Positions 24,467-64,000 of a stretch of 64,000 nt of DNA are shown here, one piece after another. The notes below the pieces were generated by a model. The model made no database searches and was not told where the DNA came from. It worked only from the letters and a program-made list of their open reading frames with translations. The stretch comes from Gymnothorax reevesii (taxonomy: Eukaryota > Chordata > Actinopteri > Anguilliformes > Muraenidae): NCBI GenBank assembly GCA_029721435.1, contig CM056583.1, positions 94,059,575 to 94,123,574 of the forward strand. The letters are read 5' to 3'. Both the position numbers and the translations under genes were made by a program. The stretch's first letter is position 1. Every line of letters begins with the position of its first letter.

Positions 24467-24495
24467 TTCGCATCGGGACAGTGGATTAATCGAAG

Positions 24496-35248: not shown

Positions 35249-35290
35249 TTAGGGTTAGGGTTAGGGTTAGGGTTAGGGTTAGGGTTAGGG
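35249..35290 (+). repeat. Telomeric repeat (TTAGGG)x7
   Basis: Seven perfect TTAGGG units with the G strand reading left to right, as at a chromosome end lying to the right. They run directly into the antisense 3' end of retroelement copy A (ttaggtttaggagag). Confidence 0.97.
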
Positions 35291-35426
35291 TTAGGTTTAG
35301 GAGAGTAATCTTCCTTTCCCAAGTTTCCCCTTATGAGGGCACCTTGGGAAAGAAAAGTTTGCACAGTCCATTCAGTGTACTGGAGCCTTTATATTGGAAG
35401 AATTTGGTCCCTTTTGTGGTGAAGTA

Positions 35427-37628
35427 TTAGGTGCGTTTGTTGAGTCCTCTTGGGAACAATGTGTTTAGCTTTGTGATCCAATGTTTTTCTGTCCTACGTC
35501 TGTCCTCCGGTGTCCAGTTGCTGTTCGTCTGAAGCCCGGATATTTCTAGTGCCTCAAGTCCATGGTGAAGGAAGTGAGCAACTAGATGTGTGTCTGTGTC
35601 TTTATGATTTCTAATGTTATATATGTGTTGAGCTAATCTAGTCCTGATCTTGTTACCCGTCTCTCCTATATATTTAACGTCACAATTGTTGCACCTAATG
35701 ACATATATGCAGTTCTTTGTATCGAGTGTGAGTGTTTGTTTGATTAGGTATGTTATGTTTGTTGTGTTGTTCTGGATTGTTGTGGCTTGTTTGTAAAACA
35801 CTGGGTCTTGTGCATGTACCGTGTTGATTTCTGGTAATTTGCTGTTAACCAGATGGTCCTTGAGGTTCTTTCCTTTTTTATATGCTGAGATGATTTTGTG
35901 GTCCTCGAGTATGTCCGTGTTTCGTAGGGATCTGTTTAAATTTATCTTAATTTTAATGTTTGCTGCTTGGCTGAATGCTGAGTAGGTGGTGATGAGTGGG
36001 ATTATTTTTCTCGGATCCTGTGGTCTCGTGGTTAGGAGGTTTTTCCGGATCCGTCTGAGGAATGATCTACTGTAACCCCTGGGTTTCAGTGCTTTGAAGA
36101 GGCTTTGGGTAGCCTCTTCAAAATCTGTTGCCTGTGTGCAGATTCTGTGGTACCTGAGCAATTGTGATTTGATCAGGCCTTTGAAAGTATGTTTTGGATG
36201 GAGACTGTTTTTGTGTAAAAGTGCGTGTGTGTCTGTGTCCTTAAAGAAGACCTTTGTGTCTAATGTGTGTGTCTGAGTAAATGAGGGTCCTTTATATGTG
36301 GTGGTGTCCAAGAAATCTATGTGTTCTTTATGTGTGGTGTATTTAACTGTGATTGTTCTGTGGTGTGTGTTCAGGATATGAATGAAGTTTTTGAAGTCCT
36401 CTAGGCTATGTGTCCATGTTCCCCATATGTCATCTAAGTATCTAAAGTAATTGGTGGGTAGTTTGGGGCATTTTTCAAAGACAGTCTCCTCCCAATGTGC
36501 CATGTAGATGTTGGCATAGGCTGGTGCAAATTTTTTTCCCATAGCTGTGCCACTGATTTGTAGAAAGAATTCCTTGTTGAATTCAAAATCATTTTTGGTG
36601 AGGCTGATTTCCAAGAGTTGCAGGAGAGATGAGTCCGGTCGATTGTCATCCGGATATTTTTCCATCCAGGCTTTTACCGCGGATAGTCCCGCCACTGTGT
36701 TTATGTTTGTGTAGAGACTGTCTATGTCTATTGTGAATAGGATAGCTTCCTGTGCTATTTTGGTGTTTTTTACTTTGTGTATAAAATCGTATGTGTCCTT
36801 AATGTAGCTGTCGTGTTTTGTGGATAGTGGAGTGAGGAAATAGTCTATATATTCAGCAATCCTGTAGGATTCACTGTTGCAGTCTGAGACAATGGGTCTC
36901 CCTGCTGGGATCTCATATGGTAGGGTCCAGGACTGTGGCGGTTTGTGTATTTTGGGGAGGAGGTAGAAAATCCTAGGTCTAGGATTGCCCTCTCCCCTGA
37001 GGTAAAAGCTTTGTTTTTTAGTGATCCGCTTGCTCTCTAAGAGTGTTTGTATTATGTTGTGTATTTCCTGGGCTGTGTCTGGATATATGGGTCTTGGTAA
37101 TTTTCTGTAGTGTGCTGTGTTATTTAGCTGTCTATTAGCCTCATGTATGTATTGTGCTCTGTCCATGATCACTATGGCACTCCCCTTATCTGCTGGCTTT
37201 AAGATGATTTGTTTGTTTTTTGCCAGCTGGTGTAGGGCTTGCCTCTCCCCTCTGCTGAGGTTGTTTTTGTCTTTGTAATTTTGTGGGTTCAGTGCCTTGA
37301 TCAGGGTATTGTTGTGTTTGATAATTTGTGTAATTTCCTCTGGAATTTGGTCAGTCCTTGGTTCCCAGGTGGACTTTGGGATGAATGGTGTGCATTGTGT
37401 GTCTTCCGCTCCCTCAAAGAAGGCCGCCAGTTTTAGTTTCCTGTGGAATTCCTGGGCTTCTCCCTTGAGGGTTTCTTTTTGTTTTTTGTGTGTGTTTGTG
37501 GTGGGTATAAATGATAAGCCTTTGTCCAAAAGGCTTAACTGGTCCTGTGTTGGTTTGTAGTTTCTGGCCAGAATTATTATGTTCTTATTCCCCTCCCTGT
37601 TTGTGTTTGGGTTTGTGGGGATCTTTAG
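35427..37628 (-). CDS. ORF2 copy A: reverse transcriptase with GIY-YIG endonuclease
   Basis: 700 codons from the TTG at 37529, plus an upstream extension in the same frame to the slip site at 37628. Domains are as in copy B. It is fully open despite the loss of ORF1's 5' part, so it can no longer be made as an ORF1 fusion. It differs from copies B-F at RKNLL (others RKNFL) and TIQNN (others TIKNN). Confidence 0.93.
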   Translation of the reverse strand, partial: LKIPTNPNTNREGNKNIIILARNYKPTQDQLSLLDKGLSFIPTTNTHKKQKETLKGEAQEFHRKLKLAAFFEGAEDTQCTPFIPKSTWEPRTDQIPEEITQIIKHNNTLIKALNPQNYKDKNNLSRGERQALHQLAKNKQIILKPADKGSAIVIMDRAQYIHEANRQLNNTAHYRKLPRPIYPDTAQEIHNIIQTLLESKRITKKQSFYLRGEGNPRPRIFYLLPKIHKPPQSWTLPYEIPAGRPIVSDCNSESYRIAEYIDYFLTPLSTKHDSYIKDTYDFIHKVKNTKIAQEAILFTIDIDSLYTNINTVAGLSAVKAWMEKYPDDNRPDSSLLQLLEISLTKNDFEFNKEFFLQISGTAMGKKFAPAYANIYMAHWEETVFEKCPKLPTNYFRYLDDIWGTWTHSLEDFKNFIHILNTHHRTITVKYTTHKEHIDFLDTTTYKGPSFTQTHTLDTKVFFKDTDTHALLHKNSLHPKHTFKGLIKSQLLRYHRICTQATDFEEATQSLFKALKPRGYSRSFLRRIRKNLLTTRPQDPRKIIPLITTYSAFSQAANIKIKINLNRSLRNTDILEDHKIISAYKKGKNLKDHLVNSKLPEINTVHAQDPVFYKQATTIQNNTTNITYLIKQTLTLDTKNCIYVIRCNNCDVKYIGETGNKIRTRLAQHIYNIRNHKDTDTHLVAHFLHHGLEALEISGLQTNSNWTPEDRRRTEKHWITKLNTLFPRGLNKRT

Positions 37629-37634
37629 TTTAAA
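37589..37634 (-). promoter_or_regulatory. -1 frameshift signal, copy A
   Basis: Heptamer at 37628-37634 with a stem 6 nt downstream, identical to copy B. Not functional as a fusion signal here, since ORF1 lacks its start. Confidence 0.7.
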
Positions 37635-38468
37635 TGGTGGAGCCAGTGGTCCAACATCTTGCTGGCTGTTCTGTCTGTCCAGTGGATGTTGTCCTGTGTT
37701 GTACGGAAGTCCCCCTCTGGAAGCTTTGGAATGTGTGGCATGTTCCGGCGGATGTGCTCGTTAATTTCCTCCAGGTTGGACTTCTGGCGGGGATCCAGGC
37801 TAGTGGAATAATTGATGATTGGGATCCAGATTTCTGCAGCAGGGAAGGTGGTTTTTGCAGCTCTCAGCATGGTTTGTAGTTGCTTGATTGCTGTCTTCTT
37901 TGGGTGCTGGTCCTTATTGTTGATTCCGAAGGACAAGACGACTCGCTGGATCTTGGAGTCTGTAGCCGTCTTTTCCAGGAGTCCCGCGGCATGGTAAAAT
38001 GTTGCCCCGGGGTAGCTGTCAATCTGGAGGTCTCCTCTGGAGTGGGATGGGATCCTGGAGAGGTTGGAGTCCCCCAAGATCACATTGCTGCCCGTGATGT
38101 TGATCCTCCATTCTTGGATCTTCCTGTTGGATCGCGGATGCCTTGTGGGGTGGAAGGTTCCATTTTCCTCTCTGGCCCCATGGGTGTGGGGTGGGGGAAC
38201 AGGTGTAAGTGGGTGAGTCGGGTTAGGTATAGGTGTGTAGTTAGGGTTAGCGGTGGAGTTAGGGTTAGGGGTGGGAGTGGGGTTAGGTGTGGGGTTTGTG
38301 TTAGGGTTAGGTGTGGGGTTAGGGTTAGGGTTAGGTGTGGGGTTGGGGTTGGGGTTAGGGTTAGGTGCGGGGCTGGGGTTAGGATTAGGGTTAGGGGCGG
38401 GGTTAGGATTATGGTTAGGGGCGGGGTTGGGGTTAGGGTTAGTGTTAGGTGTGGGTGCTGAGATGGGG
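37625..38468 (-). pseudogene. ORF1 copy A, C-terminal part with SGNH domain only
   Basis: Keeps part of the Asn-Pro repeat, the complete SGNH domain (GDS, GINN, DNIH) and the stop at 37625. The N-terminal half is missing. The frame stays open through the adjoining telomeric repeats, which also encode Asn-Pro, and into copy B's 3' region as far as 38614, but it has no ATG there. Confidence 0.9.
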
Positions 38469-38540
38469 TTAGGGTTAGGGTTAGGGTTAGGGTTAGGGTT
38501 AGGGTTAGGGTTAGGGTTAGGGTTAGGGTTAGGGTTAGGG
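38469..38540 (+). repeat. Telomeric repeat (TTAGGG)x12 between copies A and B
   Basis: Twelve perfect units fused on the left to the GGGG where copy A breaks off, and on the right to the 3' end of copy B. The GGGG-TTAGGG joint is what telomerase addition onto a broken end ending in G would give. Confidence 0.97.
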
Positions 38541-38563
38541 TTAGGTTTAGGAGAGTAATCTTC

Positions 38564-38602
38564 CTTTCCCAAGTTTCCCCTTATGAGGGCACCTTGGGAA
38601 AG
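38564..38602 (-). other. 3' UTR hairpin of the element
   Basis: On the sense strand CTTTCCCAAG pairs with CTTGGGAAAG (10 bp, perfect), with an inner CCCT/AGGG, ending about 23 nt before the telomere-like 3' terminus. The same hairpin is in every copy: 35314-35352, 43729-43767, 48898-48936, 54069-54107, 59238-59276. By analogy with other target-primed elements it may be the reverse transcriptase recognition site; this is inference. Confidence 0.75.
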
Positions 38603-38676
38603 AAAAGTTTGCACAGTCCATTCAGTGTACTGGAGCCTTTATATTGGAAGAATTTGGTCCCTTTTGTGGTGAAGTA

Positions 38677-40878
38677 TTAGGTGCGTTTGTTGAGTCCTCT
38701 TGGGAACAAAGTGTTTAGCTTTGTGATCCAATGTTTTTCTGTCCTACGTCTGTCCTCCGGTGTCCAGTTGCTGTTCGTCTGAAGCCCGGATATTTCTAGT
38801 GCCTCAAGTCCATGGTGAAGGAAGTGAGCAACTAGATGTGTGTCTGTGTCTTTATGATTTCTAATGTTATATATGTGTTGAGCTAATCTAGTCCTGATCT
38901 TGTTACCCGTCTCTCCTATATATTTAACGTCACAATTGTTGCACCTAATGACATATATGCAGTTCTTTGTATCGAGTGTGAGTGTTTGTTTGATTAGGTA
39001 TGTTATGTTTGTTGTGTTGTTCTTGATTGTTGTGGCTTGTTTGTAAAATACTGGGTCTTGTGCATGTACCGTGTTGATTTCTGGTAATTTGCTGTTAACC
39101 AGATGGTCCTTGAGGTTCTTTCCTTTTTTATATGCTGAGATGATTTTGTGGTCCTCGAGTATGTCCGTGTTTCGTAGGGATCTGTTTAAATTTATCTTAA
39201 TTTTAATGTTTGCTGCTTGGCTGAATGCTGAGTAGGTGGTGATGAGTGGGATTATTTTTCTCGGATCCTGTGGTCTCGTGGTTAGGAAGTTTTTCCGGAT
39301 CCGTCTGAGGAATGATCTACTGTAACCCCTGGGTTTCAGTGCTTTGAAGAGGCTTTGGGTAGCCTCTTCAAAATCTGTTGCCTGTGTGCAGATTCTGTGG
39401 TACCTGAGCAATTGTGATTTGATCAGGCCTTTGAAAGTATGTTTTGGATGGAGACTGTTTTTGTGTAAAAGTGCGTGTGTGTCTGTGTCCTTAAAGAAGA
39501 CCTTTGTGTCTAATGTGTGTGTCTGAGTAAATGAGGGTCCTTTATATGTGGTGGTGTCCAAGAAATCTATGTGTTCTTTATGTGTGGTGTATTTAACTGT
39601 GATTGTTCTGTGGTGTGTGTTCAGGATATGAATGAAGTTTTTGAAGTCCTCTAGGCTATGTGTCCATGTTCCCCATATGTCATCTAAGTATCTAAAGTAA
39701 TTGGTGGGTAGTTTGGGGCATTTTTCAAAGACAGTCTCCTCCCAATGTGCCATGTAGATGTTGGCATAGGCTGGTGCAAATTTTTTTCCCATAGCTGTGC
39801 CACTGATTTGTAGAAAGAATTCCTTGTTGAATTCAAAATCATTTTTGGTGAGGCTGATTTCCAAGAGCTGCAGGAGAGATGAGTCCGGTCGATTGTCATC
39901 CGGATATTTTTCCATCCAGGCTTTTACCGCGGATAGTCCCGCCACTGTGTTTATGTTTGTGTAGAGACTGTCTATGTCTATTGTGAATAGGATAGCTTCC
40001 TGTGCTATTTTGGTGTTTTTTACTTTGTGTATAAAATCGTATGTGTCCTTAATGTAGCTGTCGTGTTTTGTGGATAGTGGAGTGAGGAAATAGTCTATAT
40101 ATTCAGCAATCCTGTAGGATTCACTGTTGCAGTCTGAGACAATGGGTCTCCCTGCTGGGATCTCATATGGTAGGGTCCAGGACTGTGGCGGTTTGTGTAT
40201 TTTGGGGAGGAGGTAGAAAATCCTAGGTCTAGGATTGCCCTCTCCCCTGAGGTAAAAGCTTTGTTTTTTAGTGATCCGCTTGCTCTCTAAGAGTGTTTGT
40301 ATTATGTTGTGTATTTCCTGGGCTGTGTCTGGATATATGGGTCTTGGTAATTTTCTGTAGTGTGCTGTGTTATTTAGCTGTCTATTAGCCTCATGTATGT
40401 ATTGTGCTCTGTCCATGATCACTATGGCACTCCCCTTATCTGCTGGCTTTAAGATGATTTGTTTGTTTTTTGCCAGCTGGTGTAGGGCTTGCCTCTCCCC
40501 TCTGCTGAGGTTGTTTTTGTCTTTGTAATTTTGTGGGTTCAGTGCCTTGATCAGGGTATTGTTGTGTTTGATAATTTGTGTAATTTCCTCTGGAATTTGG
40601 TCAGTCCTTGGTTCCCAGGTGGACTTTGGGATGAATGGTGTGCATTGTGTGTCTTCCGCTCCCTCAAAGAAGGCCGCCAGTTTTAGTTTCCTGTGGAATT
40701 CCTGGGCTTCTCCCTTGAGGGTTTCTTTTTGTTTTTTGTGTGTGTTTGTGGTGGGTATAAATGATAAGCCTTTGTCCAAAAGGCTTAACTGGTCCTGTGT
40801 TGGTTTGTAGTTTCTGGCCAGAATTATTATGTTCTTATTCCCCTCCCTGTTTGTGTTTGGGTTTGTGGGGATCTTTAG
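38677..40878 (-). CDS. ORF2 copy B: Penelope-like reverse transcriptase + GIY-YIG endonuclease
   Basis: Copies element RNA into DNA and cuts target DNA. Residues are numbered from the TTG codon at 40779. The conserved LPKIHKP block of Penelope-like RTs lies near 190, followed by [10 protein letters not shown]. The motif A region is [12 protein letters not shown], and [16 protein letters not shown] and FRYLDD (catalytic Asp-Asp 366-367) follow. The C-terminus has a GIY-YIG nuclease: CIYVIRC near 607, [10 protein letters not shown] with YIG at 620-622, Arg 629, His 635, Glu 681 and Asn 689, plus a CxxC pair. The frame has no ATG before about residue 120 but stays open upstream past 40878. The region before residue 1 ([10 protein letters not shown]) resembles the N-terminus of other Penelope RTs. 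It is therefore probably made only by -1 frameshifting from ORF1. Confidence 0.96.
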   Translation of the reverse strand, partial: LKIPTNPNTNREGNKNIIILARNYKPTQDQLSLLDKGLSFIPTTNTHKKQKETLKGEAQEFHRKLKLAAFFEGAEDTQCTPFIPKSTWEPRTDQIPEEITQIIKHNNTLIKALNPQNYKDKNNLSRGERQALHQLAKNKQIILKPADKGSAIVIMDRAQYIHEANRQLNNTAHYRKLPRPIYPDTAQEIHNIIQTLLESKRITKKQSFYLRGEGNPRPRIFYLLPKIHKPPQSWTLPYEIPAGRPIVSDCNSESYRIAEYIDYFLTPLSTKHDSYIKDTYDFIHKVKNTKIAQEAILFTIDIDSLYTNINTVAGLSAVKAWMEKYPDDNRPDSSLLQLLEISLTKNDFEFNKEFFLQISGTAMGKKFAPAYANIYMAHWEETVFEKCPKLPTNYFRYLDDIWGTWTHSLEDFKNFIHILNTHHRTITVKYTTHKEHIDFLDTTTYKGPSFTQTHTLDTKVFFKDTDTHALLHKNSLHPKHTFKGLIKSQLLRYHRICTQATDFEEATQSLFKALKPRGYSRSFLRRIRKNFLTTRPQDPRKIIPLITTYSAFSQAANIKIKINLNRSLRNTDILEDHKIISAYKKGKNLKDHLVNSKLPEINTVHAQDPVFYKQATTIKNNTTNITYLIKQTLTLDTKNCIYVIRCNNCDVKYIGETGNKIRTRLAQHIYNIRNHKDTDTHLVAHFLHHGLEALEISGLQTNSNWTPEDRRRTEKHWITKLNTLFPRGLNKRT

Positions 40879-40884
40879 TTTAAA
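40839..40884 (-). promoter_or_regulatory. -1 programmed ribosomal frameshift signal (copy B)
   Basis: On the sense strand ORF1 ends CAT TTA AAC TAA, which contains U UUA AAC (40884-40878) in the correct phase, directly before the stop. A -1 slip continues with CTA AAG ATC into ORF2. Six nucleotides (UAAAGA) separate it from UCCCC (40871-40867), which can pair with GGGGA (40843-40839), with an inner CCC/GGG. Heptamer, spacer and stem match known -1 frameshift signals. The stem or pseudoknot strength is not computed. Confidence 0.85.
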
Positions 40885-42665
40885 TGGTGGAGCCAGTGGT
40901 CCAACATCTTGCTGGCTGTTCTGTCTGTCCAGTGGATGTTGTCCTGTGTTGTACGGAAGTCCCCCTCTGGAAGCTTTGGAATGTGTGGCATGTTCCGGCG
41001 GATGTGCTCGTTAATTTCCTCCAGGTTGGACTTCTGGCGGGGATCCAGGCTAGTGGAATAATTGATGATTGGGATCCAGATTTCTGCAGCAGGGAAGGTG
41101 GTTTTTGCAGCTCTCAGCATGGTTTGTAGTTGCTTGATTGCTGTCTTCTTTGGGTGCTGGTCCTTATTGTTGATTCCGAAGGACAAGACGACTCGCTGGA
41201 TCTTGGAGTCTGTAGCCGTCTTTTCCAGGAGTCCCGCGGCATGGTAAAATGTTGCCCCGGGGTAGCTGTCAATCTGGAGGTCTCCTCTGGAGTGGGATGG
41301 GATCCTGGAGAGGTTGGAGTCCCCCAAGATCACATTGCTGCCCGTGATGTTGATCCTCCATTCTTGGATCTTCCTGTTGGATCGCGGATGCCTTGTGGGG
41401 TGGAAGGTTCCATTTTCCTCTCTGGCCCCATGGGTGTGGGGTGGGGGAACAGGTGTAAGTGGGTGAGTCGGGTTAGGTATAGGTGTGTAGTTAGGGTTAG
41501 CGGTGGAGTTAGGGTTAGGGGTGGGAGTGGGGTTAGGTGTGGGGTTTGTGTTAGGGTTAGGTGTGGGGTTAGGGTTAGGGTTAGGTGTGGGGTTGGGGTT
41601 GGGGTTAGGGTTAGGTGCGGGGCTGGGGTTAGGATTAGGGTTAGGGGCGGGGTTGGGGTTAGGATTAGGGTTAGGGGCGGGGTTGGGGTTAGGGTTAGGT
41701 GTGGGGTTGGGGTTAGGATTAGGGTTAGGTGCGGGGTTGGGGTTCGGGTTAGGGTTAAGTGCGGGGTTGGGGTTAGGATGAGGGTTAGGGGCGGGGTTGG
41801 GGTTAGGGTTAGGTGTGCGGTTGGGGTTAGGATTAGGGTTAAGCGCGGGGTAGGAGATAGGGGTAGGGCTAGGTGCGGGGGTGGGGGTAGGGTGAGGGGT
41901 AGGGGGGGGGGCTGAGATGGGGCCAGAGACGTCCTGGTGCCGTCTGTGTCTGGTTTTCTGGGGTCTCTGTGGGCGTGGCTCTGGTTCCCAGTCTCTGTGG
42001 CCTCTTGGGGTTTCCTCGTCTCTTCTTCCACCCAGTTTGCGTGCTGCTCCCTGTGGTAGATGGGTCCCCCCGGTGTGCCTGGTTGTTGTTCCACTCCTGC
42101 TGGAGTGGGCCTGTCCCAGTGTTGGCCACTCTTCCTGGGATTGGGTTCGGTCCCGCGGCGTCGCGGGGGCAGTCCCCCACGCTGTTCGCGGGGGTGGTGG
42201 AGAATCCGCCAGGGCCGCGAACCTGTTGTTTGTTGTAATTCGGGTTGTGGGTGTTCTGGCTCCGAGGATGGGGGTTACTGTCTCCTTTGCAATGTTTAGG
42301 GTAGCCGGGTGCAGTCGTCTGCCAAACTTCTTTCTGGCCCATCTGCTCGCCACCTGGAATGCCTCCTGCCAGTTAGTTAGTCGTATCCTCTCCAGTTTCC
42401 CGGTAAGGATTTTCAGGCTGTCCAGGTAGTGTTCCTCCAGAATCTGCATGCTTGTGTGGAGCCAGTTGAGGGCATTTCCTGCGAGTCTCCTCATCGTCTC
42501 CTGCGTTGGAGCGGCGGGTCTCACTAGGGTGGCTAGCTCCTGCATTTTCTTATGTAAGCTTGCTGGTGGTGTTGTTCTGGCTCCTGATACTGCGGTGTTC
42601 TGTAGGTGGTGTGTTGTCTGGATGATCCTGAAGAGGATCCTGGTCGCTTCCGGGAAAGCCGCCAT
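40875..42665 (-). CDS. ORF1 copy B: Gag-like protein with Asn-Pro repeat and SGNH hydrolase domain (596 aa)
   Basis: Starts at an ATG in good context (A at -3, G at +4). Residues 1-150 are mostly helical and basic and may bind RNA. About 150-245 is basic and Pro/Arg-rich. About 245-395 is an Asn-Pro repeat encoded by telomere-like hexamers. The last ~160 residues form an SGNH hydrolase domain (details under copy C). In this copy the repeat start is diverged (PPPTPHPTPTP), from changes near 41850-41916. ORF1 esterase domains are known in CR1-type LINEs. The role here is unknown: lipid or protein ester cleavage, or particle assembly. Confidence 0.9.
   Translation of the reverse strand: MAAFPEATRILFRIIQTTHHLQNTAVSGARTTPPASLHKKMQELATLVRPAAPTQETMRRLAGNALNWLHTSMQILEEHYLDSLKILTGKLERIRLTNWQEAFQVASRWARKKFGRRLHPATLNIAKETVTPILGARTPTTRITTNNRFAALADSPPPPRTAWGTAPATPRDRTQSQEEWPTLGQAHSSRSGTTTRHTGGTHLPQGAARKLGGRRDEETPRGHRDWEPEPRPQRPQKTRHRRHQDVSGPISAPPPTPHPTPTPAPSPTPISYPALNPNPNPNRTPNPNPNPAPNPHPNPNPALNPNPNPNPAPNPNPNPNPTPNPNPNPAPNPNPNPNPAPNPNPNPSPAPNPNPNPNPTPNPNPNPTPNPNTNPTPNPTPTPNPNSTANPNYTPIPNPTHPLTPVPPPHTHGAREENGTFHPTRHPRSNRKIQEWRINITGSNVILGDSNLSRIPSHSRGDLQIDSYPGATFYHAAGLLEKTATDSKIQRVVLSFGINNKDQHPKKTAIKQLQTMLRAAKTTFPAAEIWIPIINYSTSLDPRQKSNLEEINEHIRRNMPHIPKLPEGDFRTTQDNIHWTDRTASKMLDHWLHHLN
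41470..41916 (+). repeat. Telomere-like hexamer repeat inside ORF1 (copy B)
   Basis: On the plus strand a continuous run of hexamers: TTAGGG, TTGGGG, TTAGGA, TTCGGG, TGCGGG, TGTGGG. On the sense strand these read as Pro-Asn, Pro-Ala and Pro-Thr pairs of ORF1, and length changes are in multiples of six, so the frame holds. Equivalent blocks: 38220-38468 (A, short), 46635-47088 (C), 51804-52257 (D), 56975-57428 (E), 62144-62597 (F). Confidence 0.9.
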
Positions 42666-42806
42666 GATTTTTGGTGTGTGTTGTGTGTTGGAAAAAATGT
42701 AGTCTAGTGTTTTTTTTATGTATTTTTAGTGCAAACGGCGGTGTAGGGTTCGACTGATCGATAGCGTGCTGTCAACTCAAGGTTGACGCTTCTCAATGCA
42801 GTCTAT

Positions 42807-42812
42807 ACTTAC
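42807..42812 (-). other. Possible 5' UTR splice donor
   Basis: Sense TTG|GTAAGT lies between the hammerhead-like motif and ORF1. Penelope-like elements are known to carry introns. No clear branch point, and an acceptor before the ORF1 ATG (after the U-rich stretch near 42700) is only possible. The other copies carry it at the matching place. Confidence 0.3.
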
Positions 42813-43017
42813 CAAGACTGTTATCCTGTGGCTTTGTTGGCACCGTTAGGTTTCCACCACAGGATAGTACAGTCTGTGCAGGGTTGTCGCAGAACTCCTC
42901 CTGGGGTCCTCTTGCTAATGAGATCTGGAAAGTTTTGCTCTTTTAGGAATCAGCAGCGGGTGGATTGCTTCAGATAGTCGAAGGGATCCTGTCTCTGCTG
43001 CCCTCCAAAGCGCGCGT

Positions 43018-43063
43018 GGGTCGACACAACGTTTCGCCTTGTCTCAGGCTTCTTCAGGTGTGA
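43018..43063 (-). ncRNA. Hammerhead-ribozyme-like core (copy B)
   Basis: The sense strand has CUGAAGA (fits CUGANGA), a GCCU/AGGC stem, GAAAC and a GUC: the order of conserved parts in the small hammerhead ribozymes known from Penelope-like elements. Against it: one extra A before stem II, and helix I pairing is weak beyond one base pair. It may be degenerate or a fossil. Same place in other copies: 48189-48234, 53358-53403, 58529-58574, 63698-63743. Confidence 0.4.
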
Positions 43064-43273
43064 GTAAGTGAGTAATTTTTCTGGGTTTTATTAAGCCCCG
43101 AAGAGGACCTGTTTGAGACCACTTCTAGAGCTGATTTGATTGGTTCCCTGGCTGGTGCTGCAGTTCCCCCTGTCTTTTGTTCCCCCGACGGGCCTCCTTA
43201 ATGGTCCCGGGGTGTAGGCCATTAGCCTTTTGTTTTGCCTAATGAGTGGCTCTTTGTCATTTAAAGAAATTCT

Positions 43274-43705
43274 CTTTGCCTTGAATAAGGCCATTGAGAG
43301 TGCTGTTAGTCAGGAATGTGGTGCTTGTATTCCTTTTTTGTGATTCTGTTCCAGCAATTGGTAATCACTTAAGGCTCTGGCTGGTTTTTTTTGTCATTTT
43401 AAAAAATATTTTTATTTTTGTCTTGAATAATGCTATTGAGAGTGCTGTTAGTCAGGTCTGTAGTGTTTGCATTCCTTTTGGGTAATTCTGTTCCAGTAAT
43501 CAGTCATCATTTAAGTCTCTGGCTGGTTTTTTGCCATAGATTAAAAAAAAAAAAATAAATAAATAAAATAAAATAAAATAAATAAATTTTTTCTTTTTGC
43601 CTTGACTGAGGCTATTGAGAGTGCTGTTAGTCAGGTATATGGTGCTTGTGTTCCTTTTGTGTAATTCTATCCCAGCAATCAGTAATCACTGAAGGCTCTG
43701 GCCGG
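43274..43705 (-). repeat. Triplicated 5'-terminal repeat of the element (copy B)
   Basis: Three ~110-bp diverged repeats (about 43274-43390, 43419-43535, 43593-43705) share gagagtgctgttagtcagg and aattctgttccagcaatc, and are separated by A- or T-rich tracts, including an A13 and (AAAAT)n run. They form the sense 5' end, so they may hold the promoter. Other copies: 48445-48874, 53614-54045, 58785-59214, and the start only at 63954-64000. Confidence 0.8.
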
Positions 43706-43841
43706 TTAGGTTTAGGAGAGTAATCTTCCTTTCCCAAGTTTCCCCTTATGAGGGCACCTTGGGAAAGAAAAGTTTGCACAGTCCATTCAGTGTACTGGAG
43801 CCTTTATATTGGAAGAATTTGGTCCCTTTTGTGGTGAAGTA

Positions 43842-46043: not shown

Positions 46044-46049
46044 TTTAAA
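46004..46049 (-). promoter_or_regulatory. -1 frameshift signal, copy C
   Basis: Heptamer 46049-46043 (sense order), stop 46042-46040, spacer and stem as in copy B. Confidence 0.82.
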
Positions 46050-51212: not shown

Positions 51213-51218
51213 TTTAAA
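51173..51218 (-). promoter_or_regulatory. -1 frameshift signal, copy D
   Basis: Heptamer 51218-51212 (sense order), followed by the ORF1 stop, spacer and stem as in copy B. Confidence 0.82.
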
Positions 51219-54181: not shown

Positions 54182-56383
54182 TTAGGTGCGTTTGTTGAGT
54201 CCTCTTGGGAACAAAGTGTTTAGCTTTGTGATCCAATGTTTTTCTGTCCTACGTCTGTCCTCCGGTGTCCAGTTGCTGTTCGTCTGAAGCCCGGATACTT
54301 CTAGTGCCTCAAGTCCATGGTGAAGGAAGTGAGCAACTAGATGTGTGTCTGTGTCTTTATGATTTCTAATGTTATATATGTGTTGAGCTAATCTAGTCCT
54401 GATCTTGTTACCCGTCTCTCCTATATATTTAACGTCACAATTGTTGCACCTAATGACATATATGCAGTTCTTTGTATCGAGTGTGAGTGTTTGTTTGATT
54501 AGGTATGTTATGTTTGTTGTGTTGTTCTTGATTGTTGTGGCTTGTTTGTAAAATACTGGGTCTTGTGCATGTACCGTGTTGATTTCTGGTAATTTGCTGT
54601 TAACCAGATGGTCCTTGAGGTTCTTTCCTTTTTTATATGCTGAGATGATTTTGTGGTCCTCGAGTATGTCCGTGTTTCGTAGGGATCTGTTTAAATTTAT
54701 CTTAATTTTAATGTTTGCTGCTTGGCTGAATGCTGAGTAGGTGGTGATGAGTGGGATTATTTTTCTCGGATCCTGTGGTCTCGTGGTTAGGAAGTTTTTC
54801 CGGATCCGTCTGAGGAATGATCTACTGTAACCCCTGGGTTTCAGTGCTTTGAAGAGGCTTTGGGTAGCCTCTTCAAAATCTGTTGCCTGTGTGCAGATTC
54901 TGTGGTACCTGAGCAATTGTGATTTGATCAGGCCTTTGAAAGTATGTTTTGGATGGAGACTGTTTTTGTGTAAAAGTGCGTGTGTGTCTGTGTCCTTAAA
55001 GAAGACCTTTGTGTCTAATGTGTGTGTCTGAGTAAATGAGGGTCCTTTATATGTGGTGGTGTCCAAGAAATCTATGTGTTCTTTATGTGTGGTGTATTTA
55101 ACTGTGATTGTTCTGTGGTGTGTGTTCAGGATATGAATGAAGTTTTTGAAGTCCTCTAGGCTATGTGTCCATGTTCCCCATATGTCATCTAAGTATCTAA
55201 AGTAATTGGTGGGTAGTTTGGGGCATTTTTCAAAGACAGTCTCCTCCCAATGTGCCATGTAGATGTTGGCATAGGCTGGTGCAAATTTTTTTCCCATAGC
55301 TGTGCCACTGATTTGTAGAAAGAATTCCTTGTTGAATTCAAAATCATTTTTGGTGAGGCTGATTTCCAAGAGCTGCAGGAGAGATGAGTCCGGTCGATTG
55401 TCATCCGGATATTTTTCCATCCAGGCTTTTACCGCGGATAGTCCCGCCACTGTGTTTATGTTTGTGTAGAGACTGTCTATGTCTATTGTGAATAGGATAG
55501 CTTCCTGTGCTATTTTGGTGTTTTTTACTTTGTGTATAAAATCGTATGTGTCCTTAATGTAGCTGTCGTGTTTTGTGGATAGTGGAGTGAGGAAATAGTC
55601 TATATATTCAGCAATCCTGTAGGATTCACTGTTGCAGTCTGAGACAATGGGTCTCCCTGCTGGGATCTCATATGGTAGGGTCCAGGACTGTGGCGGTTTG
55701 TGTATTTTGGGGAGGAGGTAGAAAATCCTAGGTCTAGGATTGCCCTCTCCCCTGAGGTAAAAGCTTTGTTTTTTAGTGATCCGCTTGCTCTCTAAGAGTG
55801 TTTGTATTATGTTGTGTATTTCCTGGGCTGTGTCTGGATATATGGGTCTTGGTAATTTTCTGTAGTGTGCTGTGTTATTTAGCTGTCTATTAGCCTCATG
55901 TATGTATTGTGCTCTGTCCATGATCACTATGGCACTCCCCTTATCTGCTGGCTTTAAGATGATTTGTTTGTTTTTTGCCAGCTGGTGTAGGGCTTGCCTC
56001 TCCCCTCTGCTGAGGTTGTTTTTGTCTTTGTAATTTTGTGGGTTCAGTGCCTTGATCAGGGTATTGTTGTGTTTGATAATTTGTGTAATTTCCTCTGGAA
56101 TTTGGTCAGTCCTTGGTTCCCAGGTGGACTTTGGGATGAATGGTGTGCATTGTGTGTCTTCCGCTCCCTCAAAGAAGGCCGCCAGTTTTAGTTTCCTGTG
56201 GAATTCCTGGGCTTCTCCCTTGAGGGTTTCTTTTTGTTTTTTGTGTGTGTTTGTGGTGGGTATAAATGATAAGCCTTTGTCCAAAAGGCTTAACTGGTCC
56301 TGTGTTGGTTTGTAGTTTCTGGCCAGAATTATTATGTTCTTATTCCCCTCCCTGTTTGTGTTTGGGTTTGTGGGGATCTTTAG
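54182..56383 (-). CDS. ORF2 copy E: RT + GIY-YIG endonuclease
   Basis: Open over 700 codons from 56284. Carries the LEVSGL variant of copy C. Motifs intact. Confidence 0.95.
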
Positions 56384-56389
56384 TTTAAA
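56344..56389 (-). promoter_or_regulatory. -1 frameshift signal, copy E
   Basis: Heptamer 56389-56383 (sense order), stop, spacer and stem as in copy B. Confidence 0.82.
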
Positions 56390-58176
56390 TGGTGGAGCCA
56401 GTGGTCCAACATCTTGCTGGCTGTTCTGTCTGTCCAGTGGATGTTGTCCTGTGTTGTACGGAAGTCCCCCTCTGGAAGCTTTGGAATGTGTGGCATGTTC
56501 CGGCGGATGTGCTCGTTAATTTCCTCCAGGTTGGACTTCTGGCGGGGATCCAGGCTAGTGGAATAATTGATGATTGGGATCCAGATTTCTGCAGCAGGGA
56601 AGGTGGTTTTTGCAGCTCTCAGCATGGTTTGTAGTTGCTTGATTGCTGTCTTCTTTGGGTGCTGGTCCTTATTGTTGATTCCGAAGGACAAGACGACTCG
56701 CTGGATCTTGGAGTCTGTAGCCGTCTTTTCCAGGAGTCCCGCGGCATGGTAAAATGTTGCCCCGGGGTAGCTGTCAATCTGGAGGTCTCCTCTGGAGTGG
56801 GATGGGATCCTGGAGAGGTTGGAGTCCCCCAAGATCACATTGCTGCCCGTGATGTTGATCCTCCATTCTTGGATCTTCCTGTTGGATCGCGGATGCCTTG
56901 TGGGGTGGAAGGTTCCATTTTCCTCTCTGGCCCCATGGGTGTGGGGTGGGGGAACAGGTGTAAGTGGGTGAGTCGGGTTAGGTATAGGTGTGTAGTTAGG
57001 GTTAGCGGTGGAGTTAGGGTTAGGGGTGGGAGTGGGGTTAGGTGTGGGGTTTGTGTTAGGGTTAGGTGTGGGGTTAGGGTTAGGGTTAGGTGTGGGGTTG
57101 GGGTTGGGGTTAGGGTTAGGTGCGGGGCTGGGGTTAGGATTAGGGTTAGGGGCGGGGTTGGGGTTAGGATTAGGGTTAGGGGCGGGGTTGGGGTTAGGGT
57201 TAGGTGTGGGGTTGGGGTTAGGATTAGGGTTAGGTGCGGGGTTGGGGTTCGGGTTAGGGTTAAGTGCGGGGTTGGGGTTAGGATGAGGGTTAGGGGCGGG
57301 GTTGGGGTTAGGGTTAGGTGTGCGGTTGGGGTTAGGATTAGGGTTAGGCGCGGGGTTGGGGATAGGGTTAGGGCTAGGTGCGGGGTTGGGGTTAGGGTTA
57401 GGGTTAGTGTTAGGTGTGGGTGCTGAGATGGGGCCAGAGACGTCCTGGTGCCGTCTGTGTCTGGTTTTCTGGGGTCTCTGTGGGCGTGGCTCTGGTTCCC
57501 AGTCTCTGTGGCCTCTTGGGGTTTCCTCGTCTCTTCTTCCACCCAGTTTGCGTGCTGCTCCCTGTGGTAGATGGGTCCCCCCGGTGTGCCTGGTTGTTGT
57601 TCCACTCCTGCTGGAGTGGGCCTGTCCCAGTGTTGGCCACTCTTCCTGGGATTGGGTTCGGTCCCGCGGCGTCGCGGGGGCAGTCCCCCACGCTGTTCGC
57701 GGGGGTGGTGGAGAATCCGCCAGGGCCGCGAACCTGTTGTTTGTTGTAATTCGGGTTGTGGGTGTTCTGGCTCCGAGGATGGGGGTTACTGTCTCCTTTG
57801 CAATGTTTAGGGTAGCCGGGTGCAGTCGTCTGCCAAACTTCTTTCTGGCCCATCTGCTCGCCACCTGGAATGCCTCCTGCCAGTTAGTTAGTCGTATCCT
57901 CTCCAGTTTCCCGGTAAGGATTTTCAGGCTGTCCAGGTAGTGTTCCTCCAGAATCTGCATGCTTGTGTGGAGCCAGTTGAGGGCATTTCCTGCGAGTCTC
58001 CTCATCGTCTCCTGCGTTGGAGCGGCGGGTCTCACTAGGGTGGCTAGCTCCTGCATTTTCTTATGTAAGCTTGCTGGTGGTGTTGTTCTGGCTCCTGATA
58101 CTGCGGTGTTCTGTAGGTGGTGTGTTGTCTGGATGATCCTGAAGAGGATCCTGGTCGCTTCCGGGAAAGCTGCCAT
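56380..58176 (-). CDS. ORF1 copy E (598 aa) with SGNH hydrolase domain
   Basis: Intact. Protein identical to copy F as read, although the two copies belong to different DNA variants by the GCT/GCC and poly-A markers. Confidence 0.92.
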
Positions 58177-59350
58177 GATTTTTGGTGTGTGTTGTGTGTT
58201 GGAAAAAATGTAGTCTAGTGTTTTTTTTATGTATTTTTAGTGCAAACGGCGGTGTAGGGTTCGACTGATCGATAGCGTGCTGTCAACTCAAGGTTGACGC
58301 TTCTCAATGCAGTCTATACTTACCAAGACTGTTATCCTGTGGCTTTGTTGGCACCGTTAGGTTTCCACCACAGGATAGTACAGTCTGTGCAGGGTTGTCG
58401 CAGAACTCCTCCTGGGGTCCTCTTGCTAATGAGATCTGGAAAGTTTTGCTCTTTTAGGAATCAGCAGCGGGTGGATTGCTTCAGATAGTCGAAGGGATCC
58501 TGTCTCTGCTGCCCTCCAAAGCGCGCGTGGGTCGACACAACGTTTCGCCTTGTCTCAGGCTTCTTCAGGTGTGAGTAAGTGAGTAATTTTTCTGGGTTTT
58601 ATTAAGCCCCGAAGAGGACCTGTTTGAGACCACTTCTAGAGCTGATTTGATTGGTTCCCTGGCTGGTGCTGCAGTTCCCCCTGTCTTTTGTTCCCCCGAC
58701 GGGCCTCCTTAATGGTCCCGGGGTGTAGGCCATTAGCCTTTTGTTTTGCCTAATGAGTGGCTCTTTGTCATTTAAAGAAATTCTCTTTGCCTTGAATAAG
58801 GCCATTGAGAGTGCTGTTAGTCAGGAATGTGGTGCTTGTATTCCTTTTTTGTGATTCTGTTCCAGCAATTGGTAATCACTTAAGGCTCTGGCTGGTTTTT
58901 TTTGTCATTTTAAAAAATATTTTTATTTTTGTCTTGAATAATGCTATTGAGAGTGCTGTTAGTCAGGTCTGTAGTGTTTGCATTCCTTTTGGGTAATTCT
59001 GTTCCAGTAATCAGTCATCATTTAAGTCTCTGGCTGGTTTTTTGCCATAGATTAAAAAAAAAAAAAAATAAATAAAATAAAATAAAATAAATAAATTTTT
59101 TCTTTTTGCCTTGACTGAGGCTATTGAGAGTGCTGTTAGTCAGGTATATGGTGCTTGTGTTCCTTTTGTGTAATTCTATCCCAGCAATCAGTAATCACTG
59201 AAGGCTCTGGCCGGTTAGGTTTAGGAGAGTAATCTTCCTTTCCCAAGTTTCCCCTTATGAGGGCACCTTGGGAAAGAAAAGTTTGCACAGTCCATTCAGT
59301 GTACTGGAGCCTTTATATTGGAAGAATTTGGTCCCTTTTGTGGTGAAGTA

Positions 59351-61552
59351 TTAGGTGCGTTTGTTGAGTCCTCTTGGGAACAAAGTGTTTAGCTTTGTGA
59401 TCCAATGTTTTTCTGTCCTACGTCTGTCCTCCGGTGTCCAGTTGCTGTTCGTCTGAAGCCCGGATATTTCTAGTGCCTCAAGTCCATGGTGAAGGAAGTG
59501 AGCAACTAGATGTGTGTCTGTGTCTTTATGATTTCTAATGTTATATATGTGTTGAGCTAATCTAGTCCTGATCTTGTTACCCGTCTCTCCTATATATTTA
59601 ACGTCACAATTGTTGCACCTAATGACATATATGCAGTTCTTTGTATCGAGTGTGAGTGTTTGTTTGATTAGGTATGTTATGTTTGTTGTGTTGTTCTTGA
59701 TTGTTGTGGCTTGTTTGTAAAATACTGGGTCTTGTGCATGTACCGTGTTGATTTCTGGTAATTTGCTGTTAACCAGATGGTCCTTGAGGTTCTTTCCTTT
59801 TTTATATGCTGAGATGATTTTGTGGTCCTCGAGTATGTCCGTGTTTCGTAGGGATCTGTTTAAATTTATCTTAATTTTAATGTTTGCTGCTTGGCTGAAT
59901 GCTGAGTAGGTGGTGATGAGTGGGATTATTTTTCTCGGATCCTGTGGTCTCGTGGTTAGGAAGTTTTTCCGGATCCGTCTGAGGAATGATCTACTGTAAC
60001 CCCTGGGTTTCAGTGCTTTGAAGAGGCTTTGGGTAGCCTCTTCAAAATCTGTTGCCTGTGTGCAGATTCTGTGGTACCTGAGCAATTGTGATTTGATCAG
60101 GCCTTTGAAAGTATGTTTTGGATGGAGACTGTTTTTGTGTAAAAGTGCGTGTGTGTCTGTGTCCTTAAAGAAGACCTTTGTGTCTAATGTGTGTGTCTGA
60201 GTAAATGAGGGTCCTTTATATGTGGTGGTGTCCAAGAAATCTATGTGTTCTTTATGTGTGGTGTATTTAACTGTGATTGTTCTGTGGTGTGTGTTCAGGA
60301 TATGAATGAAGTTTTTGAAGTCCTCTAGGCTATGTGTCCATGTTCCCCATATGTCATCTAAGTATCTAAAGTAATTGGTGGGTAGTTTGGGGCATTTTTC
60401 AAAGACAGTCTCCTCCCAATGTGCCATGTAGATGTTGGCATAGGCTGGTGCAAATTTTTTTCCCATAGCTGTGCCACTGATTTGTAGAAAGAATTCCTTG
60501 TTGAATTCAAAATCATTTTTGGTGAGGCTGATTTCCAAGAGCTGCAGGAGAGATGAGTCCGGTCGATTGTCATCCGGATATTTTTCCATCCAGGCTTTTA
60601 CCGCGGATAGTCCCGCCACTGTGTTTATGTTTGTGTAGAGACTGTCTATGTCTATTGTGAATAGGATAGCTTCCTGTGCTATTTTGGTGTTTTTTACTTT
60701 GTGTATAAAATCGTATGTGTCCTTAATGTAGCTGTCGTGTTTTGTGGATAGTGGAGTGAGGAAATAGTCTATATATTCAGCAATCCTGTAGGATTCACTG
60801 TTGCAGTCTGAGACAATGGGTCTCCCTGCTGGGATCTCATATGGTAGGGTCCAGGACTGTGGCGGTTTGTGTATTTTGGGGAGGAGGTAGAAAATCCTAG
60901 GTCTAGGATTGCCCTCTCCCCTGAGGTAAAAGCTTTGTTTTTTAGTGATCCGCTTGCTCTCTAAGAGTGTTTGTATTATGTTGTGTATTTCCTGGGCTGT
61001 GTCTGGATATATGGGTCTTGGTAATTTTCTGTAGTGTGCTGTGTTATTTAGCTGTCTATTAGCCTCATGTATGTATTGTGCTCTGTCCATGATCACTATG
61101 GCACTCCCCTTATCTGCTGGCTTTAAGATGATTTGTTTGTTTTTTGCCAGCTGGTGTAGGGCTTGCCTCTCCCCTCTGCTGAGGTTGTTTTTGTCTTTGT
61201 AATTTTGTGGGTTCAGTGCCTTGATCAGGGTATTGTTGTGTTTGATAATTTGTGTAATTTCCTCTGGAATTTGGTCAGTCCTTGGTTCCCAGGTGGACTT
61301 TGGGATGAATGGTGTGCATTGTGTGTCTTCCGCTCCCTCAAAGAAGGCCGCCAGTTTTAGTTTCCTGTGGAATTCCTGGGCTTCTCCCTTGAGGGTTTCT
61401 TTTTGTTTTTTGTGTGTGTTTGTGGTGGGTATAAATGATAAGCCTTTGTCCAAAAGGCTTAACTGGTCCTGTGTTGGTTTGTAGTTTCTGGCCAGAATTA
61501 TTATGTTCTTATTCCCCTCCCTGTTTGTGTTTGGGTTTGTGGGGATCTTTAG
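59351..61552 (-). CDS. ORF2 copy F: RT + GIY-YIG endonuclease
   Basis: Open over 700 codons from 61453. Protein identical to copies B and D as read. Motifs intact. Confidence 0.95.
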
Positions 61553-61558
61553 TTTAAA
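61513..61558 (-). promoter_or_regulatory. -1 frameshift signal, copy F
   Basis: Heptamer 61558-61552 (sense order), stop, spacer and stem as in copy B. Confidence 0.82.
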
Positions 61559-63345
61559 TGGTGGAGCCAGTGGTCCAACATCTTGCTGGCTGTTCTGTCT
61601 GTCCAGTGGATGTTGTCCTGTGTTGTACGGAAGTCCCCCTCTGGAAGCTTTGGAATGTGTGGCATGTTCCGGCGGATGTGCTCGTTAATTTCCTCCAGGT
61701 TGGACTTCTGGCGGGGATCCAGGCTAGTGGAATAATTGATGATTGGGATCCAGATTTCTGCAGCAGGGAAGGTGGTTTTTGCAGCTCTCAGCATGGTTTG
61801 TAGTTGCTTGATTGCTGTCTTCTTTGGGTGCTGGTCCTTATTGTTGATTCCGAAGGACAAGACGACTCGCTGGATCTTGGAGTCTGTAGCCGTCTTTTCC
61901 AGGAGTCCCGCGGCATGGTAAAATGTTGCCCCGGGGTAGCTGTCAATCTGGAGGTCTCCTCTGGAGTGGGATGGGATCCTGGAGAGGTTGGAGTCCCCCA
62001 AGATCACATTGCTGCCCGTGATGTTGATCCTCCATTCTTGGATCTTCCTGTTGGATCGCGGATGCCTTGTGGGGTGGAAGGTTCCATTTTCCTCTCTGGC
62101 CCCATGGGTGTGGGGTGGGGGAACAGGTGTAAGTGGGTGAGTCGGGTTAGGTATAGGTGTGTAGTTAGGGTTAGCGGTGGAGTTAGGGTTAGGGGTGGGA
62201 GTGGGGTTAGGTGTGGGGTTTGTGTTAGGGTTAGGTGTGGGGTTAGGGTTAGGGTTAGGTGTGGGGTTGGGGTTGGGGTTAGGGTTAGGTGCGGGGCTGG
62301 GGTTAGGATTAGGGTTAGGGGCGGGGTTGGGGTTAGGATTAGGGTTAGGGGCGGGGTTGGGGTTAGGGTTAGGTGTGGGGTTGGGGTTAGGATTAGGGTT
62401 AGGTGCGGGGTTGGGGTTCGGGTTAGGGTTAAGTGCGGGGTTGGGGTTAGGATGAGGGTTAGGGGCGGGGTTGGGGTTAGGGTTAGGTGTGCGGTTGGGG
62501 TTAGGATTAGGGTTAGGCGCGGGGTTGGGGATAGGGTTAGGGCTAGGTGCGGGGTTGGGGTTAGGGTTAGGGTTAGTGTTAGGTGTGGGTGCTGAGATGG
62601 GGCCAGAGACGTCCTGGTGCCGTCTGTGTCTGGTTTTCTGGGGTCTCTGTGGGCGTGGCTCTGGTTCCCAGTCTCTGTGGCCTCTTGGGGTTTCCTCGTC
62701 TCTTCTTCCACCCAGTTTGCGTGCTGCTCCCTGTGGTAGATGGGTCCCCCCGGTGTGCCTGGTTGTTGTTCCACTCCTGCTGGAGTGGGCCTGTCCCAGT
62801 GTTGGCCACTCTTCCTGGGATTGGGTTCGGTCCCGCGGCGTCGCGGGGGCAGTCCCCCACGCTGTTCGCGGGGGTGGTGGAGAATCCGCCAGGGCCGCGA
62901 ACCTGTTGTTTGTTGTAATTCGGGTTGTGGGTGTTCTGGCTCCGAGGATGGGGGTTACTGTCTCCTTTGCAATGTTTAGGGTAGCCGGGTGCAGTCGTCT
63001 GCCAAACTTCTTTCTGGCCCATCTGCTCGCCACCTGGAATGCCTCCTGCCAGTTAGTTAGTCGTATCCTCTCCAGTTTCCCGGTAAGGATTTTCAGGCTG
63101 TCCAGGTAGTGTTCCTCCAGAATCTGCATGCTTGTGTGGAGCCAGTTGAGGGCATTTCCTGCGAGTCTCCTCATCGTCTCCTGCGTTGGAGCGGCGGGTC
63201 TCACTAGGGTGGCTAGCTCCTGCATTTTCTTATGTAAGCTTGCTGGTGGTGTTGTTCTGGCTCCTGATACTGCGGTGTTCTGTAGGTGGTGTGTTGTCTG
63301 GATGATCCTGAAGAGGATCCTGGTCGCTTCCGGGAAAGCCGCCAT
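61549..63345 (-). CDS. ORF1 copy F (598 aa) with SGNH hydrolase domain
   Basis: Intact, same protein as copy E. About 350 bp of leader separate its ATG from the hammerhead-like core at 63698-63743. Confidence 0.92.
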
Positions 63346-64000
63346 GATTTTTGGTGTGTGTTGTGTGTTGGAAAAAATGTAGTCTAGTGTTTTTTTTATG
63401 TATTTTTAGTGCAAACGGCGGTGTAGGGTTCGACTGATCGATAGCGTGCTGTCAACTCAAGGTTGACGCTTCTCAATGCAGTCTATACTTACCAAGACTG
63501 TTATCCTGTGGCTTTGTTGGCACCGTTAGGTTTCCACCACAGGATAGTACAGTCTGTGCAGGGTTGTCGCAGAACTCCTCCTGGGGTCCTCTTGCTAATG
63601 AGATCTGGAAAGTTTTGCTCTTTTAGGAATCAGCAGCGGGTGGATTGCTTCAGATAGTCGAAGGGATCCTGTCTCTGCTGCCCTCCAAAGCGCGCGTGGG
63701 TCGACACAACGTTTCGCCTTGTCTCAGGCTTCTTCAGGTGTGAGTAAGTGAGTAATTTTTCTGGGTTTTATTAAGCCCCGAAGAGGACCTGTTTGAGACC
63801 ACTTCTAGAGCTGATTTGATTGGTTCCCTGGCTGGTGCTGCAGTTCCCCCTGTCTTTTGTTCCCCCGACGGGCCTCCTTAATGGTCCCGGGGTGTAGGCC
63901 ATTAGCCTTTTGTTTTGCCTAATGAGTGGCTCTTTGTCATTTAAAGAAATTCTCTTTGCCTTGAATAAGGCCATTGAGAGTGCTGTTAGTCAGGAATGTG

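Follow-up and report, generated by a model that had tools for sequence, protein, structure and literature searches.

Telomerase and the reverse transcriptases (RTs) of Penelope-like elements (PLEs) descend from a common ancestor, and the telomeric PLEs described in PMC3846280 are elements without an endonuclease, from rotifers, fungi, protists, and plants. In bdelloid rotifers, the Athena and Terminon elements are described as telomere-associated PLEs that lack a fused endonuclease and carry a telomeric stretch after a hammerhead ribozyme (PMC6431247, PMC3846280). A PLE of a different kind is present in the 64,000-nucleotide stretch of DNA analyzed here (the window), which covers positions 94059575 to 94123574 of contig CM056583.1 (C11 in the following) of the ray-finned fish Gymnothorax reevesii (assembly GCA_029721435.1). 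This element is endonuclease-bearing (EN+), with a GIY-YIG domain fused to its RT, and at nearly half of the chromosome ends of the genome its copies have accumulated with a single orientation. It is probably a member of an active-looking EN+ PLE family that homes to telomeric (TTAGGG)n by means of a telomere-complementary end of its RNA.

Several other retroelements invite comparison. The Anolis Poseidon element, an EN+ PLE, starts reverse transcription internally in a multi-unit RNA in vitro, cuts AT-rich DNA, and uses a start site that is non-homologous to the target (PMC11167929). The SART1 and TRAS elements of the silkworm are described as non-long terminal repeat (non-LTR) elements that have a poly(A) 3' end and insert into telomeric repeats, and short telomere-like words in their RNA can cause initiation at an internal site (PMC7265360). 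In the green anole, Tx1-1_ACar is a telomere-specific long interspersed nuclear element (LINE) of the Tx1 non-LTR type, as cited in PMC10088271. Like canonical EN+ PLEs such as Poseidon and Penelope, the fish element encodes RT and GIY-YIG in one frame and forms tandem or partial-tandem copies. Unlike Anolis Poseidon, it has a 3' end that matches its telomeric target, and a separate open reading frame (ORF1) with an SGNH-like domain. It resembles SART1 and TRAS in being inserted into telomeric repeats and in its short telomere-like RNA words, but it carries a GIY-YIG domain and is not a non-LTR element with a poly(A) end. The SART1/TRAS endonuclease is of another type than GIY-YIG. With Tx1-1_ACar it shares a place in vertebrate telomeric repeats, but it is a PLE rather than a Tx1 non-LTR element. 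Because Tx1-1_ACar was known earlier, the new point is that the element is a PLE and not that it is the first telomeric retroelement of a vertebrate. An earlier note on this DNA knew of no described vertebrate case. No description of a telomere-targeted vertebrate PLE was found in the open-licence literature, where sturgeon PLEs beside telomere-like repeats are in print.

The studied part of the window (35249-64000) consists of (TTAGGG)7, a 5'-truncated antisense PLE copy, (TTAGGG)12, and five near-identical tandem copies, in this order. Both runs of TTAGGG are perfect, as the earlier note had reported. The first run (35249-35290, plus strand) lies on the centromere side, where the sense 3' end of copy 1, ...GATTACTCTCCTAAACCTAACC, runs into it. 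Copy 1 (35291-38468) is truncated just past the proline-asparagine (Pro-Asn) tract of ORF1, and the second run (38469-38540, plus strand) separates its truncated 5' end from the 3' end of copy 2. Copies 2 (38541-43703), 3 (43704-48872), 4 (48873-54043), and 5 (54044-59212) are complete units of 5163-5171 bp, and the 5171 bp of copy 4 serve as the reference unit. Copies 2 and 3 are joined directly, with CCTAACC followed by GGCCAGAGCC at the sense junction. Copy 6 (59213-64000) is cut by the window edge and is completed by the remaining 383 bases in the adjoining sequence, up to C11:94123957. All six copies are co-oriented on the minus strand, so the earlier description of six antisense copies in line with the telomeric G strand was correct as to direction. 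True TTAGGG repeats, however, adjoin the 3' end of only two of the six; the other four adjoin the 5' end of the previous unit. C11 is 94,150,210 bp long, and the array begins ~55 kb from its end. The DNA to the left of 35249 is non-telomeric and by eye resembles the end of a Tc1-type transposon. The left 35.2 kb of the window contain no run of two or more TTAGGG units.

ORF2 of the element remains open over 777 codons in all six copies (for example at 35427-37760, 38677-41010, and 59351-61684, minus strand). In the two copies that were scanned, its C-terminal GIY-YIG domain was recognized by Pfam with an E value of 5e-8 and 33.5 bits, above the cut-off of 22.6, and its RT domain (RVT_1) with an E value of 7e-6 and 26.3 bits, below the cut-off of 29.6. 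Proteins that fuse an RT to a GIY-YIG domain in this way are PLEs. The earlier identification of an endonuclease-bearing Penelope-like element agrees with these domains.

How is this family distributed in the genome? The assembly comprises 2.174 Gb in 421 contigs, 21 of which are of chromosome size (C1-C21, with 42 ends). A protein search identified at least 58 RT copies (58 of 3889 candidates were scored), 57 of which span residues 1-777 and one residues 2-777. Their identity was printed as 100% for all 58, and a stop was found in one frame. C1-C21 carry 49 of these copies, 45 of them no farther than 62 kb from an end. The genome contains 106 occurrences of an exact 21-base motif located just inside the 3' end; the 100 that were listed comprise 94 on C1-C21 and six on contig C119. 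The census of 3' ends covers 97 sites on C1-C21, namely the 94 exact-motif sites and three inexact ones, and leaves out the six sites on C119, the six unlisted sites, and C5:7951160, which lacks the end motif. A junction score of 8, the 99th percentile of 2000 random 60-mers from positions 1-35000 of the window (null maximum 11), was used as the cut-off, and flanks classed as telomeric scored 17-60.

Of the 97 3' ends, 65 are found no more than 200 kb from a contig end, and in all 65 the 5' end of the element points outward. At these 65 ends, 35 of the 3' junctions are telomeric or telomere-like (34 scored, and one, C5:138077168, assigned by eye), 30 are tandem, and none is of another kind. 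The family is present at 19 of the 42 ends, at 18 of them within 62 kb, and the probability of a single orientation at all 18 carrying ends by chance is ~8e-6. By comparison, 100 kb at each of the 42 ends amounts to 0.2% of C1-C21. The earlier note had named two outcomes that would speak against its proposal, namely most copies lying internally without TTAGGG at the 3' junction, or copies lying in either orientation relative to the nearest telomere. On neither count did the genome-wide census refute the proposal. No poly(A) was seen at any of the 97 3' junctions.

The junctions themselves are informative. The 3' end of the element RNA (38541-38625, minus strand) is predicted to fold into a 14-bp hairpin that is followed by the telomere-complementary end CUCUCCUAAACCUAA(CC); the z score of the hairpin is -3.3. 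Telomeric 3' junctions occur in two registers, CTCTCCTAAACCTAACCC and CTCTCCTAACCC, in which the repeats are entered at the second or first CCTAA word. Pairing of the primer with one or another of the CCUAA words would give rise to two such registers. Several truncated 5' ends adjoin (CCCTAA)n at varied points, near unit positions 4153, 2923, 2550, 1667, and 1328, in addition to copy 1 of the window. Intact 5' ends on C1-C21 are found at tandem junctions in 30 out of 30 cases (40 of 42 candidates were scored). Such an arrangement is expected of PLEs, which form partial tandems, and is compatible with multi-unit RNAs on which reverse transcription starts internally; internal initiation in a multi-unit RNA, as with Anolis Poseidon, would fit the fish family. 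A search of window positions 34000-64000 with Rfam returned no hammerhead ribozyme, although a minimal or degenerate motif could escape such a search, and no match was obtained at a relaxed threshold in 42600-43800 or 38530-38900. The sequence CTGAAGA...GAAAC in the 5' region is suggestive of a hammerhead by eye, without an Rfam match. Rfam also gave a weak hit for the telomerase RNA of vertebrates (9.1 bits, where the gathering score is 70; E value 3.5), which was taken as chance and was not used.

These features place the family close to Athena and Terminon in several respects. Both have a PLE RT and a short reverse-complement telomeric stretch at the 3' end after an RNA fold (PMC6431247), the predicted fold in the fish element being a plain hairpin. 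Likewise, most rotifer copies are described as 5'-truncated by short telomeric repeats, head-to-tail arrays occur, and GDSL esterases are present in some elements (PMC6431247, PMC3846280). The fish family too is located at chromosome ends with 5' truncations beside telomeric repeats, along with interior copies and other 5' neighbors. It differs in its fused GIY-YIG domain, in the unmatched hammerhead, and in its vertebrate host with TTAGGG repeats. The absence of an endonuclease from the RT protein defines Athena and Terminon, and the fish family is therefore not filed there, despite working alike.

The model that best combines these observations starts from an element RNA ending in the hairpin and a short telomere-complementary stretch, CCUAAACCUAACC. 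This stretch would pair with the G-rich strand, whose 3' end would prime reverse transcription. The antisense element would thereby be added in line with the G strand, with its 5' end toward the chromosome tip. The primer could be the natural 3' overhang at a tip or a 3' end opened by GIY-YIG in telomere-like DNA elsewhere. Reverse transcription would often stop early, and telomerase would then cap the truncated 5' end with TTAGGG. The new repeats could receive further elements, of this family or of a second one described below. Tandem arrays would arise by copying of multi-unit RNA together with local unequal exchange. The almost uniformly intact RT frames point to a young family, which may still be active.

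Several observations weigh against this model. The family is known from genome sequence alone and not from a transcript, a protein, or a new insertion. Thirty-two of the 97 3' ends are interior, 13 of them pointing outward and 19 inward, which indicates that the target of homing is telomere-like sequence and not the tip itself. Two interior copies (C5:35.40 Mb and C14:50.31 Mb) have, by eye, telomere-like repeats of the opposite strand beside them. The tandem junctions, being duplicates, add little independent weight. Most carrying ends are incomplete, as their contigs stop within units (the high ends of C1, C2, C6, and C17) or begin with N. The high end of C19 finishes in TTAGGG, yet its outermost first-family 3' end is 12 kb inside, and no element was seen at the very tip. 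Finally, one truncated 5' end on C11 joins the 5' sequence of the second family instead of telomeric repeats, and several 5' ends that are truncated in the Pro-Asn tract join the 3' end of the second family directly. The earlier claim that the element adds to TTAGGG ends is supported by the census as far as telomeric repeats are concerned, but the family is not confined to ends, and addition to natural tips would be a further step that the orientation and the junctions suggest.

The remaining 30 of the 32 interior 3' ends lie on telomere-like repeats of the same strand, in line with the proposed homing. A purely SART/TRAS-like route would have GIY-YIG nick existing double-stranded (TTAGGG)n anywhere and the element insert inside the repeats, with tips being hit because most TTAGGG is there, and without extension of natural ends. 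The strand-specific orientation of the interior arrays fits this route, as does a GIY-YIG domain that scores above the Pfam cut-off. So does a young copy at C20:31.63 Mb that is embedded in an interstitial telomere-like satellite present on both its sides (its neighbor at C20:31.57 Mb has the satellite on the 5' side only). However, an element that inserts into a long array should keep long repeats on one side or on both. Near-perfect TTAGGG runs beside 3' ends are shorter than 20 units where measured, compared with ~1.1 kb of TTAGGG at the C5 tip; one measured run reached the edge of its sequence piece at 19 units, and some runs go on as degenerate repeats. The short runs count against insertion as the sole route, which we regard as rather unlikely. 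Within the model of priming by the G strand, the C20:31.63 Mb copy implies that an endonuclease nick in internal telomere-like DNA probably also serves.

The same 3' behavior is seen in a second PLE. It has its own RT and GIY-YIG domain and lies beyond the first family at several ends. The ~4 kb that follow these two domains contain no open frame as long as 150 codons, and at C8 the sequence resembles, by eye, the start of an ORF1. Its 3' end is TATATTGAGA(G/C)CCTAACC, and in the RNAs of both families a hairpin is predicted shortly before a CCUAACC end that is complementary to the telomere (z scores of -2.4 and -2.1 in the second family). Of 18 second-family 3' ends, which come from sequence gathered for the first family, 13 are on telomeric or telomere-like DNA and five are tandem. 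At the high ends of C7 and C8 the order from centromere to tip is first family, 11-12 TTAGGG units, second family. In a tree of 122 RTs, both families fall into one 12-row group (support 89, drawn open) with other sequences between them. At C12:88.917 Mb and C20:48.049 Mb, the two families are neighbors, accompanied by TTAGGG, and face inward at a distance of 0.5-1 Mb from the contig end; these blocks could be terminal pieces that were inverted, ends that fused long ago, or errors of scaffolding. Six small contigs (C76, C154, C165, C197, C268, and C277) encode an 802-codon GIY-YIG protein in tandem arrays that repeat about every 7938 bp. These arrays perhaps represent the second telomeric PLE family, and the unplaced contigs perhaps missing chromosome ends.

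Local amplification has clearly contributed to the arrays. Copies 2-6 of the window are 99.7-99.9% identical, and outside the Pro-Asn tract they differ at four variable sites. Three of these (alignment columns 255 and 4128 and an indel at 5023-5024) alternate copy by copy, and column 2955 is private to copy 3. The alternation is the mark of two-unit block duplication, so the window array was amplified locally and does not represent six separate additions to a telomere, a reading that was abandoned on this account. Other arrays have their own near-constant periods (for example ~5076 bp in the C2 array and 3316 bp in that of C19), which again points to array growth that is partly local. It could be argued that the whole distribution arose passively, in that one or a few chance landings in telomeric repeats were copied among ends by subtelomeric exchange and break-induced replication, without any telomere preference today. 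The amplification just described would fit such passive spread, and the C12 and C20 blocks, with the families side by side in the wrong orientation, look as a moved block would. But the 5' truncation points vary and two 3' registers occur across ends, and two divergent families show the same 3' behavior. Furthermore, interior copies lie on telomere-like repeats of many chromosomes, including C1, C3, C4, C6, C8, C12, C13, C14, C15, C17, C18, C20, and C21. Passive spread as the main cause is thus improbable.

The state of the scaffold ends also bears on the possibility of an assembly artifact, whereby repeats were collapsed or misplaced and PLE arrays that lacked a placement were attached to the ends of scaffolds. 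Some scaffolds start with N or break off inside a unit, as mentioned above, and an apparently interior cluster at C7:5.06 Mb adjoins a 100-N gap. Against an artifact, no N interrupts the window as it passes from host DNA to (TTAGGG)7 and on into the array, and 18 ends show the same outward orientation. PacBio HiFi contigs of the lake sturgeon have also been reported to contain PLEs with telomere-like repeats at their boundaries (PMC12031113). Taken together, an artifact is very improbable.

The lake sturgeon report describes degraded GIY-YIG PLEs beside an integrated acipenserid herpesvirus 3, with telomere-like repeats at the boundaries, in five contigs, and its authors judged these PLEs to be randomly placed and non-functional (PMC12031113). 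In the parts of that report available to us, no analysis of their orientation or 3' ends was found. The sturgeon PLEs may have the same telomere habit as the fish family. Among the frogs, as described in PMC10794172, Penelope is enriched near centromeres and satellites, and LTR elements are found at subtelomeres, so telomeric PLEs are not general. Relatives of the fish family were also sought among proteins. Among 120 listed of the 1579 ORF2-type homologs, two are named (Coilia grayii and Acipenser ruthenus); both are from fish and neither is named a PLE. A PLE protein of the sterlet aligns with 74% of the query at 65% identity and belongs to the same six-row clade (support 91). Named matches to ORF1 come from ray-finned fishes, including the elopomorphs Synaphobranchus kaupii and Aldrovandia affinis, with 66-69% identity over ~30% of the query. 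The earlier guess of a fish host agrees with these matches. No relatives were found in viral contigs.

Does the family replace telomerase? Exons of the telomerase RNA-binding domain (RBD) are present at C11:32.68 Mb, and replacement is therefore unlikely. The high ends of C5 and C16 have TTAGGG tips, so on the sequence the family does not appear to stand in for telomerase in the manner of HeT-A. A more far-reaching proposal, possible but doubtful, is that this vertebrate partly builds its chromosome ends with two EN+ PLE lineages whose RNAs mimic telomerase RNA (a fold and a CCUAACC template) and extend real tips beside a working telomerase. The habit would then be an old one, common to sturgeons and teleosts and overlooked since assemblies stop inside the arrays. 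Chromosome-end gaps of vertebrate assemblies may indeed conceal retroelement arrays. With a young, intact EN+ family on TTAGGG in a host that keeps its telomerase exons, one can study directly the way in which a mobile RT reaches chromosome ends, any lengthening of the ends that it causes, and the sharing of an end between telomerase and its mobile relatives.

ORF1 (61549-63405, minus strand, in copy 6) has 618 codons there and 616-618 across units. It contains a conserved N-terminal domain, the Pro-Asn tract, and an SGNH/GDSL-like hydrolase domain with the motifs GDSN, GINN, and DNIH. The SGNH match is below the Pfam curated cut-off (23.4 against 32.9 bits), and a scan of seven ORF1 relatives gave sub-cut-off matches in three and none in four. 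In an alignment of 14 sequences, G470, G519, and H600 are invariant, and D471, S472, N473, N521, and D597 are nearly so. Each unit also contains degenerate TTAGGG-like blocks, which are coding DNA for the Pro-Asn tract in the frame of ORF1 (62164-62583, minus strand). The length of the tract in copy 1 differs from that in the other copies, and such tracts were recognized by eye in five of 19 ORF1-type proteins (P0135, P0136, P0138, P0143, and P0180).

A U UUA AAC heptamer (61552-61558, minus strand) is located immediately upstream of the stop codon of ORF1, and its register would allow a -1 shift into ORF2. It is present in all six copies; the register was computed for copy 6. The first methionine of ORF2 is at residue 199. 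The arrangement of heptamer and frames suggests that ORF1 and ORF2 may be fused through frameshifting; the structure downstream of the heptamer is weak (z score -1.7). To the left of the array, the window contains tandem arrays at 8273-9559 (192-bp unit) and 4769-5307 (67-bp unit), and a 1005-codon open frame at 24490-27507 that by eye resembles the gag-pol of a Ty3-type LTR element.

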